DNA of 64,000 bases from Cyanobacteria bacterium REEB67 (GTDB taxonomy: Bacteria > Cyanobacteriota > Vampirovibrionia > Obscuribacterales > Obscuribacteraceae). The notes under the pieces are model-generated. The model saw nothing but the letters and a program-made list of their open reading frames with translations, was not told the origin of the DNA and did no database searches. A program made the translations under genes and the position numbers. Shown piece after piece: positions 56,934-63,373 of this stretch (position 1 is the first letter of the stretch; the number at the start of each line of letters is the position of its first letter). The DNA is taken from NCBI GenBank assembly GCA_018971775.1, contig JAGXAB010000012.1, positions 1 through 64,000 of the forward strand. Direction: 5' to 3'.

Positions 56934-57677
56934 TTAGCGCCGAGAAATCTTCGGATAGTCGAGGACGATTTCAATCGGCTCGCCTGCCGATGCATGACTA
57001 TAAGTAAGCAAATTGATATGCGCTGAGACGGGAGCAGGCATGATCGATTCGGCTCGCGACACCGGATCGACTGCTCTGGTGCTCTTTTCGATAAAGGCCA
57101 GCAGGCTCTCCTGCAAAGGAGCGGGGGTGACTACAAAAATCCCTTTTACACCATTGGCACCAAGGCGAGCCTGGATCTTCATCACCTTCAAAAGAAAGTC
57201 GCGGAGCAATTCGACGTAGATTTTGCCCGGATCGTTTTTGGTTTTACCACCATAGCTGAAACCATCCATGGTGTTAACTTTTCCGTCAATCACCAGAGCG
57301 CAAATCGGGCTCTGTCCGACTGCCGTTTTGAAGACGACCTCGTAGACCGGAATCAGCCAACGCGAAAAAAATCCGCGCTCGATCTGTCTCACCTCGGCCG
57401 AGGTGACTCGCGAAAACATTTCCCAGAGCCGGATTTGACGATTGTATAAGCCGCTCTGATGGGCAAAGGCGAAATAGTCATGAAAGAGCGAGTGAATCAC
57501 AGCCAGCGGTAAGGGGTCGATGTGCGCTCCGGTCGGTGCCTCGATCACTAGATTGTCCAGCCCGGCCTTGATGTCAACAGCGGTCGCTCCACGAGGATTG
57601 CCAGTGACTGCGCCGAGGTTGTAGGCCTCATCTTCGAGATTCTTGATCTGCACGGTGCAATTATTTACAACAGCCAT
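56934..57677 (-). CDS. Hypothetical protein
   Basis: 248-aa ORF from internal ATG (MAVVNNCTVQIKNLEDEAYNLG...); convergent with the carboxylase gene. Confidence 0.65.
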   Translation of the reverse strand: MAVVNNCTVQIKNLEDEAYNLGAVTGNPRGATAVDIKAGLDNLVIEAPTGAHIDPLPLAVIHSLFHDYFAFAHQSGLYNRQIRLWEMFSRVTSAEVRQIERGFFSRWLIPVYEVVFKTAVGQSPICALVIDGKVNTMDGFSYGGKTKNDPGKIYVELLRDFLLKVMKIQARLGANGVKGIFVVTPAPLQESLLAFIEKSTRAVDPVSRAESIMPAPVSAHINLLTYSHASAGEPIEIVLDYPKISRR

Positions 57678-58106
57678 TTGAATCCCATCCGAGCGCCGGG
57701 CAAAAACCAATCAACAAACGAGCTAATAAATCAGCCAACAGGCAGATTTTATCAAAGAATTGCCAAGTAAACCGCTATGTGAAATCAAGGGCGAAATTGT
57801 CCGAATATTTGCCAAGAGCAGCCTGCCCCATGTGCTTGCTGAAGGGAAATGGGATTAGCTGCCGTCAAACGTGGTACATCTACTATTAGCGACTGAGCGT
57901 ATGGGCGAACAACGGGCAAGGAGGTAAAAAAGTTCGCCATAAAGTGGGCTATGTGCTCGCTTGCTTCAGTCCCCTATCAGGTAAACTGATAATAGGCGCT
58001 TGGCGGTTGCAGCTTCTCGGAATTTAGAGGCAGCCAGAAGGTAGCCCATTTGGGTTCCTGAGCACTTGCATGTCTATCTAACTTAAGGACTTGACCGAGT
58101 TAAGTT

Positions 58107-58688
58107 ATGCCTCTTCTCCCCGCAAAAAACAGTACAAAAGAGTTTACCCAGACTGCTTTGGACGTCCTCACTGACCTGAAGAAGGGCAGCGGCGAAAAAC
58201 GCAACGAATTTGTCTGGGTGCATCAGGAGCGTGTCTACGCAGTGGCCTACCTGGGCACTGACAACCACGACCATGCCACCGAAGTGACGATTTCGGCGTT
58301 CAACAATGCTTTCAGTGCACTCAATCAGTCATTGCCGAAAAATCCGGACATTTCGATCTGGGATTGGCTCTCCCAATTTGTTGTCGAGGCCATGGGCGAA
58401 TATCACGCTCAAAATTCCGACGATCCGGTCAATAACGAAACAATGGACCCGACTCAAGATGGGTCAGCCAACATGGATTGGGAGACGACGGTTTTACTTG
58501 GCGTGCAAAGAGTCAAACGCTGTATTTCATCCCTTTCCCCCGAACAGAAAAAAGCCTTTCTTTTGCGCCACCACTACGACCTTAACTACGAGCAGATTGC
58601 CACCGTTGCCAACGAAACCGTCGAATCGGCAATGGCAACCCTTTATAGAGCCAGAGTACAAGTAGTTAAGTGCCTGGGCCGCGGATAA
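58107..58688 (+). CDS. Divergent ECF-like sigma factor
   Basis: C-terminal region-4-like ISSLSPEQKKAFLLRHHYDLNYEQIATVANETVESAMATLYRARVQVVKCL; weak region-2-like N-terminus. Confidence 0.75.
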   Translation: MPLLPAKNSTKEFTQTALDVLTDLKKGSGEKRNEFVWVHQERVYAVAYLGTDNHDHATEVTISAFNNAFSALNQSLPKNPDISIWDWLSQFVVEAMGEYHAQNSDDPVNNETMDPTQDGSANMDWETTVLLGVQRVKRCISSLSPEQKKAFLLRHHYDLNYEQIATVANETVESAMATLYRARVQVVKCLGRG

Positions 58689-58771
58689 AACTTATTGAGC
58701 ATTCGATTTTTAGATGATACGCCCTGGTTCACTGACCAAGTTTCGATAAATTTGAGGTTCGGCTTACAGAC

Positions 58772-61700
58772 ATGACTTGCAACCGGTTCAGAACATTAGT
58801 CCAACAGAGATTCGACCAGGATCTGGAGACCCAGGACCATCGCGCCCTGATCAACCACCTGGAAGGTTGCGAATCTTGCGCCAAGTTTGATCATCAACTC
58901 GACCAGATGATTCAAGCCGCTCAGGACACGCCTGCACCGGACGAAGTCAGACCACAAAACCCGGAAGCGCTGGCCAGACAGATCATGGAGCAACTGCCCC
59001 AGAAAAAGGGCTCGCTCGTAAATATGATCTTGGGTATGTTTTCGGGCGGATCAAAAACGCCCAAAGCACCGAAAGCAGCCAAAGGCGGCAAGGACAAAGG
59101 CGCCAGAGACATGCGCGAAGATGGCGGCAGCGTCATCAAAGACAAGCTCAAAGCCAAGACCAAAGGCAAGTCCAAAGACAGTTACACTGATAAAGAACCG
59201 GATATGCGTCCCGGTGGTGTCAGCTTCGGACGTAAAAAAGACGATCAGATCGATAATGCTGCTATTGAAAGTCAAGTCGGCACTTTTTCTCGTCTGAAAT
59301 CGATATCTTCCAACCGCGGCGGCGAACAGCTAGACCGCGAAGCTCAGTCAACAACGCGCTCGCTCGGCGAGAAATTCGGCATGCCCGGCTCTAATACGAT
59401 CCTGGACGAAGGTCCGCTGACGCTCGCCGAATCGATCAAACGCAAAGTTTCCGAATCGCAAAAAATGAGCCCACTCGACGGCGACGACGGCGAAGCTTCA
59501 GGCTCCCTCGTACCAGTCAACGATAACGGTGCTGGCTCGCCCTTCGGTCGCGGAGACGCGTCTGCTGGCGACGGCAACTGGGGACCGCCGGCCTTCGGCG
59601 CCAAACAGAGCATGTCAGACATGCCTGCAGCCGCCACGCAAGTAGGGGGCGGCATGGACTGGGGCGGAGGTGCAGCAAGGAGCGGCAGCGCTCCCAATTT
59701 TGCCGCACCGACACCGATTGGTTTCGATGAACATCCCGGTTCTTCGATCGGACTGGCACCGCCCGGAGGTCGCAGACCTGATTTACAGGAAGGGGCTGGC
59801 AAGGCCGGTATCGGCTTGAGCAGTGCGGCTCCAGCACAGTCTGCCGGTTGGGGTGCCAGCGACAATGCCAAAGCGGCCGACAACAGCTCGGCCTGGGGTG
59901 GCGCACCAGCGGCCAGTCCGACGGCAGCAGTTCCGACTCCGGCGGCAAGCACCTGGACATCAGGATGGGGCAGCGAAAGCGCCCAACCCGTACCACAAAA
60001 ATCGTCGGATTCCTGGGCTGTGCCCGGATCTGATTCGACTGCCTCCTGGGGACAAGCAGAAAATACCGAAAGCGGCAATCAAGCCGGGTCGGCGCCCTCT
60101 GCCCCGGCCAGTGCACAGGGCATGCCCGCTCAGGAGAACGGAAGCGACCCGTGGGGTGCGCCCGCCGCCGCCGCATGGGGTGCAGGTCAGGCCGCAGCCG
60201 ACGCGGCAAATGCCGTTGCGCTAGCTTCTCAACAAACTCTTCCCACCGGCACCCCTGCTCCAGCGACACCTTCTAATGATGCCTGGGGAGCGCCATCCGG
60301 CGCCGCACCGGCCGCCTCTGATGCCTGGGGAGCGCCCGCGGTCGCGCAAGAAGCGGCATGGGGTGGCGCTCCTGCCGCAAGCCCACAGCCCGGACCAGCT
60401 ATCATCAATGAAGTCGCCGAAACTCAGCCCGCTACGGCAAACGCTGATGCCTGGGGCGCACCGGCCCAGACTCCCGCTCAGGCAACACCGGCTAACGATG
60501 CCTGGGGCGCACCGGCCCAGACTCCTGCTCCGGCAACACCGGCTAACGATGCCTGGGGCGCACCGGCCCAGACTCCTGCTCCGGCAACACCGGCTAACGA
60601 TGCCTGGGGAGCAGCCGCTCCAGCCACCTCATCCAGTGACGCCTGGAATGCCGCCGCCTCAACCTCGTCCACAGCGGGCGATGCCTGGGGTGCAGCGCCG
60701 CAAGCAGCTGGTCAAGCCGGCCCTGAAGCAGCTGGCGATGCCTGGACACAGCCGGCACCAGCTCCGGATCAACCGCCGATCACCGGCGTGATGGCCACCG
60801 GATACGCCACCATTCCTCCCGGTCAATTCGCCACTCCGGCAAATGCCGGCTCTGCCATCGCCAGTAGTGGCTGGGGTCAAGCCCCAGTACCGCCCGCGAC
60901 TCTTGACGCAGCCCAGATCGAAGCCAAGAAAAATGCCTGGTCCGCCGAAGCGGAGCAGCTCGAAACTGGCACATGGCGAGCATTTGCTCCGAAAATGAAT
61001 GCCGATCTCGGCGCCAAAGCACCAGCAGCACCACCGGCAGCGCCACCCGGCGACCGCTGGGATGTACCGATTCAAGAGCGGGCAAAAACCGGAGCCGAAC
61101 AGAGCAATGCGGCAATGCCGGCCATGCCACCAGCACCAGTGACGCCAGCGCAAGCTGCCGCACCGGCCGATACCCAGGGCCGATGGGATGTGCCGATACA
61201 GGAAAGATCAAAACAAGAGGAAGCCGCACCGGTCGTGGGCGGCACGAATATTGGTATGAATATCGGCATGCCACCAGGCGCTGTGGGCAATGGCGCCCCC
61301 GTGCTCAGCTCGGGCATACCGGTCAATCAAATCGTCGAGAAAATGGGTCAGGTCCTCGGTGGTCAATCGCAAGGGGCATCGGCCGGCGATCAGGAAAGCC
61401 GCTGGGATGTGCCTATTCAGGAAAGAGTCAAGAGCTCGCAAGAGATCGCCCCGGTACAGGCAGTCCAGGCCGCGCCACAGGCATTTCAAAATGCACCAGC
61501 TCCAAGCTGGGGCCAACCAGCGCCCGTCGAAATGCCGGCGTCTCCGCCGCCTGCAGTCGACAACAATGCCTGGGGCGCACCGGCGCCGGCAAATTCATGG
61601 GGTCAGGAAGCCGCTCCGGCAGCTCCGGCCGCTCCATCCTGGGAAAGCACGCCCGCTTCGGCAGGCAGCGGATGGGGCAGTGGCGACGGCGTACCTCTGC

Positions 61701-63373
61701 CGACGGCCCAGCCAACCAGCACCTGGGGGCAACCAGCCACCAGCGGTTGGGGAGACCCACCGGCTGCGGCGAATAATCAGGCCGCGCCTGCCATCTCTCA
61801 AAGTCAAACGCCTCTAGCCGGCTCCGGTTGGGGCACTCCAGCCGATCCGGCAAATGGTGGTCAGACCAACGGCGGCAGCGCCTGGGGCCAACCACCAGCA
61901 CCGGTGGCGACTGGGTGGGGAGCACCACCGCCGCCAGCCCCCGAGGCAGTCCCTTCGTCACCGCCTCAGGCCGCCCCTAGAGCCGAAATCACCGACAAAG
62001 TACAGGGCGGTGGTTTGCTTACCGGCATCGACGATAAAGCAATCGATCGTATCTTCGGTGAGATCGGCGTCCAGGAATCGGTCAGCAAAACCGTCGTCAA
62101 CAGCGGCGGCGAGCCAGTATCGAATTTCTCTCCACCGACATCGGCCGCTCCGCAATTTATGGAAGCACAGCCACAGCCGGCGCCAGCTCCGGCACCGTCC
62201 TTTGCCCAGACTGCCGCTCCGGAAGCGCCCGTAGCCAAAGGCTTGCTCGGTGGTATCGATGATAAAGCGATAGATCGCATCTTCAGTCAAAATCTCGGCG
62301 TCAGCGAATCTTCCGTTCCGGTTGGTCGTGGTGCTGAAATGGCCGGCGCGCCCGCCATGGCCAGTGCCGCGGCTGCATCGAGTTGGGGTAACCCTCCCGC
62401 CCCAGCTGTGCCCACAGCTCCTGCTCAAAGTCCGGCTGAAGTAGCCCAGTCCAATGGCTGGGGCGCTCCCTTGCCGCCCGCTTCCTCCGGTTGGGGCATG
62501 CCACCATCCCCGATGCCTGACGCTCCTTCCGAAGCCGCTCCTCCAGCCGCAAGCGGCTGGGGAACACCACCCGCCGCCCCCGGTCAATGGGGTATGCCTC
62601 CGGCCCCGATGGCCGCACCAGCCCAGCCCGCTCTGCCTGACGCCGCCGCTATGGCTCAGGCCAATTTTGGACAGGCCGCCGCAGGTGGTGCCCCGAAATT
62701 GTTCTCGGTCGATGACAGCGTCATGGATCGTATTTTCTCCGAAAATCTCGGCATACCACAGGATGGTCAGCCCGGCCAGGTAGCCGCTGCTCCAGTGCAT
62801 CAGACCATGCCCGAAATGCAGCAACCGGCAGCTCCATTTACCTCCGGACCGCCGCCGAAGATCGCCGGCATCGGTCGTCTCGATTCTAATGCCGATCCCA
62901 ACCAGGATGCAGGCTCGGGACGTATCGCTTCGATCGGTAAATTCCTGCTCGATCAAAAAGATCTCGACAAGATCGGCAAGCTCACCAATACCGACAATAA
63001 CGACGGTAAGCTGCGCATTCTCACCAAGGAAAATTCGGACGACTTGCAAGCCCTGCTCGGTCAAATCGGTGCCCAGGTGGGTGTGCTTGGTTCGGTAATC
63101 GTCGGCCACGATGGCTTACTAATCGCCAACACCATGCCTCCCGATATGGACGCGGAATCGGTCGGAGTCTGGGCGCTCGGCGTCTATATGAACACCGAAC
63201 ACGTCACCAAGAAAATGGGACATGATCGCGTCCACCAGGTCGTTTCCAGAACTCCCCGCGGTTATGTGATCATCGCCGACTTCGGCGGTGGACTGCTGGT
63301 CTGCGTCACCGAAGGCACGAGCATCGATTCGCTCATCCCCTTGATGCGCACGATCACTCAACTGGTCAACTAA
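58772..63373 (+). CDS. Anti-sigma zinc-finger (zf-HC2-like), WG-repeat scaffold, Roadblock/LC7 multidomain protein (1533 aa)
   Basis: N-term MTCNRFRTLVQQRFDQDLETQDHRALINHLEGCESCAKFDHQL; more than 30 WG/GW-type motifs; C-term LQALLGQIGAQVGVLGSVIVGHDGLLIANTMPPDMDAESVGVWALGVYMNTEHVTKKMGHDRVHQVVSRTPRGYVIIADFGGGLLVCVTEG. Confidence 0.82.
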   Translation: MTCNRFRTLVQQRFDQDLETQDHRALINHLEGCESCAKFDHQLDQMIQAAQDTPAPDEVRPQNPEALARQIMEQLPQKKGSLVNMILGMFSGGSKTPKAPKAAKGGKDKGARDMREDGGSVIKDKLKAKTKGKSKDSYTDKEPDMRPGGVSFGRKKDDQIDNAAIESQVGTFSRLKSISSNRGGEQLDREAQSTTRSLGEKFGMPGSNTILDEGPLTLAESIKRKVSESQKMSPLDGDDGEASGSLVPVNDNGAGSPFGRGDASAGDGNWGPPAFGAKQSMSDMPAAATQVGGGMDWGGGAARSGSAPNFAAPTPIGFDEHPGSSIGLAPPGGRRPDLQEGAGKAGIGLSSAAPAQSAGWGASDNAKAADNSSAWGGAPAASPTAAVPTPAASTWTSGWGSESAQPVPQKSSDSWAVPGSDSTASWGQAENTESGNQAGSAPSAPASAQGMPAQENGSDPWGAPAAAAWGAGQAAADAANAVALASQQTLPTGTPAPATPSNDAWGAPSGAAPAASDAWGAPAVAQEAAWGGAPAASPQPGPAIINEVAETQPATANADAWGAPAQTPAQATPANDAWGAPAQTPAPATPANDAWGAPAQTPAPATPANDAWGAAAPATSSSDAWNAAASTSSTAGDAWGAAPQAAGQAGPEAAGDAWTQPAPAPDQPPITGVMATGYATIPPGQFATPANAGSAIASSGWGQAPVPPATLDAAQIEAKKNAWSAEAEQLETGTWRAFAPKMNADLGAKAPAAPPAAPPGDRWDVPIQERAKTGAEQSNAAMPAMPPAPVTPAQAAAPADTQGRWDVPIQERSKQEEAAPVVGGTNIGMNIGMPPGAVGNGAPVLSSGIPVNQIVEKMGQVLGGQSQGASAGDQESRWDVPIQERVKSSQEIAPVQAVQAAPQAFQNAPAPSWGQPAPVEMPASPPPAVDNNAWGAPAPANSWGQEAAPAAPAAPSWESTPASAGSGWGSGDGVPLPTAQPTSTWGQPATSGWGDPPAAANNQAAPAISQSQTPLAGSGWGTPADPANGGQTNGGSAWGQPPAPVATGWGAPPPPAPEAVPSSPPQAAPRAEITDKVQGGGLLTGIDDKAIDRIFGEIGVQESVSKTVVNSGGEPVSNFSPPTSAAPQFMEAQPQPAPAPAPSFAQTAAPEAPVAKGLLGGIDDKAIDRIFSQNLGVSESSVPVGRGAEMAGAPAMASAAAASSWGNPPAPAVPTAPAQSPAEVAQSNGWGAPLPPASSGWGMPPSPMPDAPSEAAPPAASGWGTPPAAPGQWGMPPAPMAAPAQPALPDAAAMAQANFGQAAAGGAPKLFSVDDSVMDRIFSENLGIPQDGQPGQVAAAPVHQTMPEMQQPAAPFTSGPPPKIAGIGRLDSNADPNQDAGSGRIASIGKFLLDQKDLDKIGKLTNTDNNDGKLRILTKENSDDLQALLGQIGAQVGVLGSVIVGHDGLLIANTMPPDMDAESVGVWALGVYMNTEHVTKKMGHDRVHQVVSRTPRGYVIIADFGGGLLVCVTEGTSIDSLIPLMRTITQLVN
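60446..60598 (+). repeat. Three tandem 51-bp units encoding DAWGAPAQTPAPATPAN
   Basis: gatgcctggggcgcaccggcccagactcctgctccggcaacaccggctaac at 60446, 60497 and 60548; a partial degenerate fourth from 60599. Confidence 0.95.

Follow-up and report, generated by a model that had tools for sequence, protein, structure and literature searches.

The two adjacent genes described here appear to encode an ECF sigma/class-I anti-sigma complex that has been withdrawn from transcription. We put at about even the chance that a transcription-incompetent sigma is locked on the head of a Roadblock scaffold linked to the GTPase MglA. It is promoter recognition that defines a sigma factor; if the reading is right, this would possibly be the first case in which the work is done by the complex itself and not by a sigma set free from it.

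The window, i.e. the whole stretch of 64,000 nucleotides that was analysed, corresponds to contig C3 of a 6.75-Mb genome in 209 contigs (93.6% complete, 6.2% contaminated). A 193-aa ORF with an ECF sigma fold, apparently without promoter- and core-binding determinants and hereafter called the pseudo-sigma, lies at 58107..58688 on the forward strand. After a gap of 83 bp follows a 1533-aa ORF on the same strand (58772..63373), hereafter the giant, which consists of an anti-sigma domain, a disordered linker and a Roadblock domain. An earlier note on this DNA had proposed just this layout, a sigma ORF and, 83 bp further on, a 1533-aa ORF of the zf-HC2/Roadblock type, and it is borne out by the ORFs and by Pfam. 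The same gene occurs in named relatives (Candidatus Obscuribacter and other Obscuribacterales), and the Obscuribacterales are 'Melainabacteria', on the non-photosynthetic side of the cyanobacterial phylum. Upstream of the pair, on the reverse strand, lies a divergent orphan gene of 258 aa (56934..57710), which adjoins the pair at nearly all orthologous loci with enough flank. The Pfam search of its window copy gave no match, and apart from a weak match to DUF7527 no fold or family was found for it; whether it is a member of the system is uncertain.

The 193-aa protein has the ECF region-2/4 fold that had been claimed for it. Pfam returned a Sigma70_r4_2 match (E=3.2e-9), the AF2 model is a two-domain sigma2/sigma4 ECF fold (pLDDT 81), and the best Foldseek match of this model is SigW from the SigW-RsiW complex, with PhyR structures also among the matches. 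A profile of 24 sigmas of the family matched AlgU, RpoE, SigE and SigW at 3e-10 to 1e-7. We then compared its residues with those of two control sets. The first comprised 38 ECF sigmas, three of solved structure and the others from this and related genomes; since these were mostly best-scoring, the second added 16 weaker-scoring true ECFs. The family was represented by 28 members and two further ones, L192 from the same genus and L184 from the sister family, giving a total of 30. The region-2.2 Gln was present in 38/38 and 16/16 of the control ECFs versus 0/30 family members; its position is occupied by I, V, L or M in 28/28 as well as in the two further members and, as judged by alignment with the controls, by Ile at codon 62 of the window copy (58290..58292, forward strand). 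Region 2.3-2.4 of the window copy (aa 79-106; 58341..58424, forward strand) is acidic, with no Lys or Arg and a net charge of -6. Across the family this charge ranged from -6 to 0, versus +2 to +6 in the control ECFs, with no overlap, and both L192 and L184 are without the Gln as well as without basic charge in this region. An Asn in region 2.3-2.4 was seen in 36/38 controls but in only 2/28 family members, 25/28 having Asp or Glu, and the Lys or Arg found in the recognition helix of 36/38 sigmas of the first control set is replaced by Met in 22/28 of the family. From these alignments the promoter-reading and core-binding determinants seem to be gone from every orthologue examined, and the 193-aa protein is probably not a working sigma.

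The residues that would hold an anti-sigma factor are retained. In RpoE, R149 and R178 pair with D11 of RseA (PMC7406223); according to the residue mapping made in this analysis, the equivalents are R154 and R183 of the pseudo-sigma, each kept in 28/28, and D15 of the anti-sigma domain of the giant, kept in 27/28. The dN/dS values of the pseudo-sigma were 0.008-0.013 in the five closest pairs and 0.07 in the sixth, and because they are so low the gene is not decaying, which rules out a pseudogene.

The earlier note had modelled the protein as a sigma that still works, although its promoter and core contacts are very divergent, and that a soluble giant anti-sigma holds until a signal through the Roadblock domain frees it. 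Fold and operon order do match an ECF/anti-sigma pair, the sigma-4 recognition helix retains two arginines, the conservation in terms of dN/dS is extreme, and about one third of class-I anti-sigmas are predicted to be soluble (PMC7406223). Nevertheless, we regard this model as unlikely, and the proposed sigma release fits poorly with promoter-reading and core RNA polymerase residues that are absent in all orthologues examined: the region-2.2 Gln and the basic character of region 2.3-2.4 are lost in every one of them, as against 0/54 controls. Nor does the upstream DNA point to a set of target genes. A conserved block, TATCAGGTAAACTGATAA (57975..57992, forward strand), and after it AGGCGCTTGGCGGTT, is located 115-132 bp before the pseudo-sigma start, and many orthologues have it in recognisable form in their upstream DNA, with the distance varying. 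The genome search found one site for TATCAGGTAAACTGATAA in the whole genome, and a regulon sharing this block was therefore rejected, although the block and the sigma's own promoter may be different things.

For the transcription-incompetent complex that we favour, the partner of the pseudo-sigma would be the N-terminus of the giant. Its first 80 residues (58772..59011, forward strand) form a class-I anti-sigma domain with an Hx3Cx2C motif, C3, H29, C33 and C36 all being present. The zf-HC2 match of the N-terminal 143 aa scored 26.1 bits in Pfam (cut-off 22.2), and a profile of 22 such N-termini matched B. subtilis RsiW (PDB 5wuq_C) over positions 5-80 with E=1e-6, in agreement with the anti-sigma type already assigned in the earlier note. 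Since the RsiW profile match and the SigW Foldseek match were obtained independently, both halves can be read as a SigW/RsiW-like pair. H29, C33 and C36 are all present in 21/28 orthologues; in the remaining 7/28, namely the Ca. Obscuribacter phosphatis clade (L035-L042) and L047, zinc ligands have been lost. Class-I anti-sigmas without zinc are common, and binding by RsiW is not strictly zinc-dependent (PMC7406223). No TM segment was found in the giant, the top 19-residue Kyte-Doolittle mean of 1.63 lying within the Roadblock core, so that the protein is cytosolic as had been suggested; a search for a hidden anchor yielded merely a short hydrophobic stub past the anti-sigma domain (e.g. SLVNMILGMF).

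Directly after the anti-sigma domain comes a Lys-rich segment (aa 77-136; 59000..59179, forward strand) with a net charge of +11. In most orthologues no other stretch of the giant, which is otherwise acidic, is as basic; the net charge of the segment ranges from 0 to +11 with a mean of +6, compared with -43 for the rest of the linker, and is near neutral in two orthologues (L049 and L052). The more acidic sigma region 2.3-2.4 is, the more basic this segment tends to be (Spearman -0.63 between the two charges), and the same co-variation was obtained with phylogenetic contrasts on the Roadblock tree (r=-0.60, p=0.0006); the idea preceded the statistic, but both columns of numbers had already been seen. 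The charge of region 2.3-2.4 showed no correlation with four other segments of the giant. We take the co-variation as a hint of locking read from the sequences, that is, as supporting evidence and not as proof.

The two genes are also strongly co-conserved, as the model of the earlier note required. The pseudo-sigma and the giant are adjacent in 28/28 complete loci, i.e. those with a long enough contig, which come from the Obscuribacteraceae and the sister family (L070 being the sister-family genome among them), and the order of the neighbourhood is largely fixed: MgtE, PccB, divergent orphan, sigma, giant, PepA. Close matches to the tail of the giant (E<=1e-34) were found in 34/39 genomes of the order and in 0/21 genomes of other orders in the class. 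The 5/39 genomes of the order without a close match include one that is 98% complete (G008), and the pair is therefore not indispensable. When 294 genomes were searched phylum-wide with the sigma profile, 1/293 other genomes gave a match; this sole candidate for an orthologue outside the order was rejected as an ordinary ECF with the Gln and a basic region 2.4.

These data also bear on the possibility of a decoy, in which the pseudo-sigma would be a PhyR-like anti-anti-sigma that competes with a true ECF for the anti-sigma domain of the giant, the Roadblock domain and MglA setting the release of that other sigma. The sigma-like domain of PhyR, by structure a correct ECF but degenerate in its promoter and core regions, does titrate an anti-sigma (PMC8103513), PhyR structures are among the Foldseek matches noted above, and the genome has ECF sigmas for which no nearby zf-HC2 match was found (C23:205581 and C86:983). 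On the other hand, a second sigma is absent at the conserved locus, the gene is placed like that of a cognate sigma, directly upstream of the anti-sigma and with no receiver fusion, and the charge co-variation suggests a dedicated partner. We therefore hold a decoy to be rather improbable.

Returning to the favoured scaffold, what the orthologues of the giant share is the anti-sigma domain, the Roadblock domain together with its N-terminal extension, and a small number of linear motifs. Full-length copies span 744-1845 aa. In the window copy the linker of about 1300 aa is disordered by composition (21% Ala, 13.5% Pro, 12% Gly, 3.2% Trp) and contains 41 WG and GW motifs (31 WG, 10 GW, overlapping), whereas 1000 shuffles that preserved the composition gave 9.8 on average and never more than 21. 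The enrichment seen in the earlier note thus holds for this copy, but it is not general, because the number of WG motifs across orthologues runs from 1 to 59 and the size of the array is not conserved. Consequently, we rejected WG/GW as a functional array, and the key multivalent role given to it earlier is not upheld; in this the giant differs from the AGO-hook GW/WG proteins, which have a conserved Argonaute-binding array. Other linear motifs are conserved instead. At least one copy of LFxxDDxxxDxIF (motif A), and often two or three, was present in 28/28 giants, and RWDxPIQER and EAEQxETGxW were found in many orthologues; none of the three occurred in the shuffled linkers. In the window copy, motif A appears as DDKAIDRIF at 62009..62080 (profile A5, E=8.6e-7) and 62237..62311 (E=3e-10) and as LFSVDDSVMDRIF at 62693..62761 (E=1.9e-11), while RWDVPIQER lies at 61055..61081, 61181..61207 and 61400..61426, all on the forward strand. 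The LFxxDDxxxDxIF pattern gave no match in other ORFs of the orthologous loci, and a profile search of the whole genome found it in the giant only, in three copies, so that a motif common to other proteins of the genome was rejected. These linear motifs, e.g. LFSVDDSVMDRIFSENLG and RWDVPIQER, would be the likely client-binding sites. In the AF2 model of the tail the helix of motif A was predicted with a pLDDT of about 50-60, a confidence too low to judge whether it touches the Roadblock domain.

The C-terminal Roadblock/LC7 domain, together with part of its conserved N-terminal extension, covers 62975..63370 on the forward strand. That the giant ends in such a domain, as first proposed from the letters, is confirmed by the Robl_LC7 match in Pfam (E=1.7e-9), by the complete alpha-beta-beta-alpha-beta-beta-beta-alpha Roadblock fold of the AF2 tail model, and by its Foldseek matches, which were Asgard Roadblocks, p14/MP1 of Ragulator and MglB. 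By sequence, the C-terminal 171 aa match an Asgard Roadblock at 2.3e-8; MglB was not among the sequence-profile matches of the tail at E<=1, and the domain is no closer to MglB than to other Roadblocks. Its dN/dS in close pairs was 0.000-0.02. Two other Roadblock proteins are encoded in the genome, one of 125 aa that stands alone (C177) and one of 1053 aa with N-terminal hydrophobic segments (C23). Roadblock matches were obtained in 39/39 genomes of the order and in 0/21 outside it.

The search of the genome for an MglA-like GTPase proposed in the earlier note was successful. Two MglA proteins were found, at C177:106384-106959 and C188:33239-33811, and the former matches M. xanthus MglA at 1e-79. 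MglA is present in 38/39 genomes of the order versus 0/21 of other orders, and the closest copy in the genomes of the order is mostly 92-97% identical. Neither mglA gene is adjacent to the pair. Taken by fold and by matched distribution, a link of the giant to GTPase signalling is plausible. The co-distribution of MglA and Roadblock is one order-level event and could reflect nothing more than shared ancestry, and the other Roadblock proteins of the genome could be the MglA regulators. A giant that is mainly structural or condensate-forming, with a sigma/anti-sigma head that only caps the protein for folding or oligomerisation and a Roadblock domain that dimerises and has no GTPase link, would suit the low-complexity, disordered linker of variable length and the known ability of Roadblock domains such as p14/MP1 to act as scaffolds, but is very unlikely given how strongly the Roadblock domain is constrained and that MglA is kept in almost all genomes of the order.

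In the mechanism proposed for the locked complex, the pseudo-sigma, in which promoter-reading and RNA-polymerase-binding residues have been exchanged for acidic and hydrophobic ones, would be permanently seated on the anti-sigma domain at the N-terminus of the giant, and the Lys-rich segment would cover its acidic former DNA face. The motifs LFxxDDxxxDxIF, RWDxPIQER and EAEQxETGxW of the disordered linker would recruit clients, and the Roadblock tail would dimerise and bind or regulate an MglA-type Ras-like GTPase. More tentatively, and with somewhat less than an even chance, we infer that in a whole bacterial order an ECF sigma/anti-sigma pair has given up transcription and become a docking head, that the disordered Roadblock scaffold on which it sits organises MglA signalling, and that the sigma is by now a structural part of a GTPase/polarity apparatus. 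A giant disordered protein of bacteria here carries a Roadblock domain, in genomes of a non-photosynthetic cyanobacterial lineage in which MglA is highly conserved, and the pair suggests that what was once a transcription switch now serves as part of a cell-signalling scaffold.

A literature search, with subscription journals mostly outside its reach, returned nothing joining Roadblock with anti-sigma and nothing on Obscuribacter sigma factors or this locus, and the novelty of a Roadblock anti-sigma locus is accordingly provisional. Among known systems, MglA-MglB of Myxococcus and Thermus is similar in that a true MglA is present here and that the Roadblock fold matches MglB structures. MglB is small, however, whereas the Roadblock described here ends a 1533-aa protein, is not MglB-specific in sequence and is not encoded beside mglA. 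The cvnB Roadblocks of the Streptomyces conservons, of which cvnB5 was a weak profile match, likewise represent bacterial Roadblocks in a signalling setting. Conservons combine Roadblock, histidine kinase and GTPase in one operon, whereas the locus of the pair has no histidine kinase or GTPase genes.

SigW-RsiW of B. subtilis (5WUQ) shares the sigma fold, the anti-sigma domain fold and the sigma-then-anti-sigma gene order, and the zinc that is dispensable in RsiW (PMC7406223) parallels the ligands lost in 7/28 giants. It differs in that the giant has no TM segment or membrane release, that the anti-sigma domain is fused to a linker and a Roadblock, and that the pseudo-sigma is apparently without core- and promoter-binding residues. 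The closest precedent is the sigma-like domain of PhyR from the PhyR-NepR-EcfG general stress response, described as structurally a correct ECF whose promoter and core regions are degenerate (PMC8103513), just as the pseudo-sigma combines an ECF fold with such degenerate regions. In PhyR, however, this domain is joined to a receiver and its partner is NepR, while the pseudo-sigma is a stand-alone 193-aa ORF from an unrelated lineage with a zf-HC2 class-I partner. Because of this receiver fusion and NepR partner the pseudo-sigma is not a member of the PhyR family, but by analogy it may work like PhyR. A sigma apparently blind to DNA and polymerase, yet kept by strong selection as the dedicated partner of an anti-sigma domain, would constitute a second, independent case of sigma mimicry after PhyR.

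Divergent from the pair formed by the pseudo-sigma and the giant lies an orphan gene of 258 aa (window positions 56934-57710, minus strand), for which no Pfam match was obtained. Almost every locus whose flank is long enough has this gene beside the pair, conserved at 25-46% identity, and a weak match to DUF7527 was seen in 8 of 23 orthologues. The orphan gene may be a third component of the pair's system.

Among the giants themselves, those of loci L035-L042 and L047 have lost zinc ligands of the anti-sigma domain (for instance HLETSDSG) with the partner sigma retained, and they constitute a natural zinc-loss series. At the other end of the protein, the Roadblock domain is locally expanded behind the giant in two genomes, where additional Roadblock ORFs lie in tandem directly 3' of it: two of 149 and 125 aa in L058 (5660-6493), and one of 273 aa in L048 (8389-9210).

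Shorter paralogues combining an anti-sigma-like N-terminus with Roadblock are found at L074, L075, L076, L081, L082 and L091; no sigma gene was evident among the neighbouring ORFs of L074, L075, L076, L082 and L091. A second Roadblock family of the order (L084, L086, L087 and L090) is laid out as N-terminal hydrophobic segments, a long linker and one or two Roadblock domains. L090 belongs to the REEB67 genome itself (contig C23), and its repeats, IMNVSDNEMSDLFDNLL, resemble motif A (LFxxDDxxxDxIF) of the giant linkers. Elsewhere on the contig that carries the pair, at G000:C3:78432-79203, the gene of a canonical ECF sigma precedes that of a protein in which zf-HC2 matched three times.
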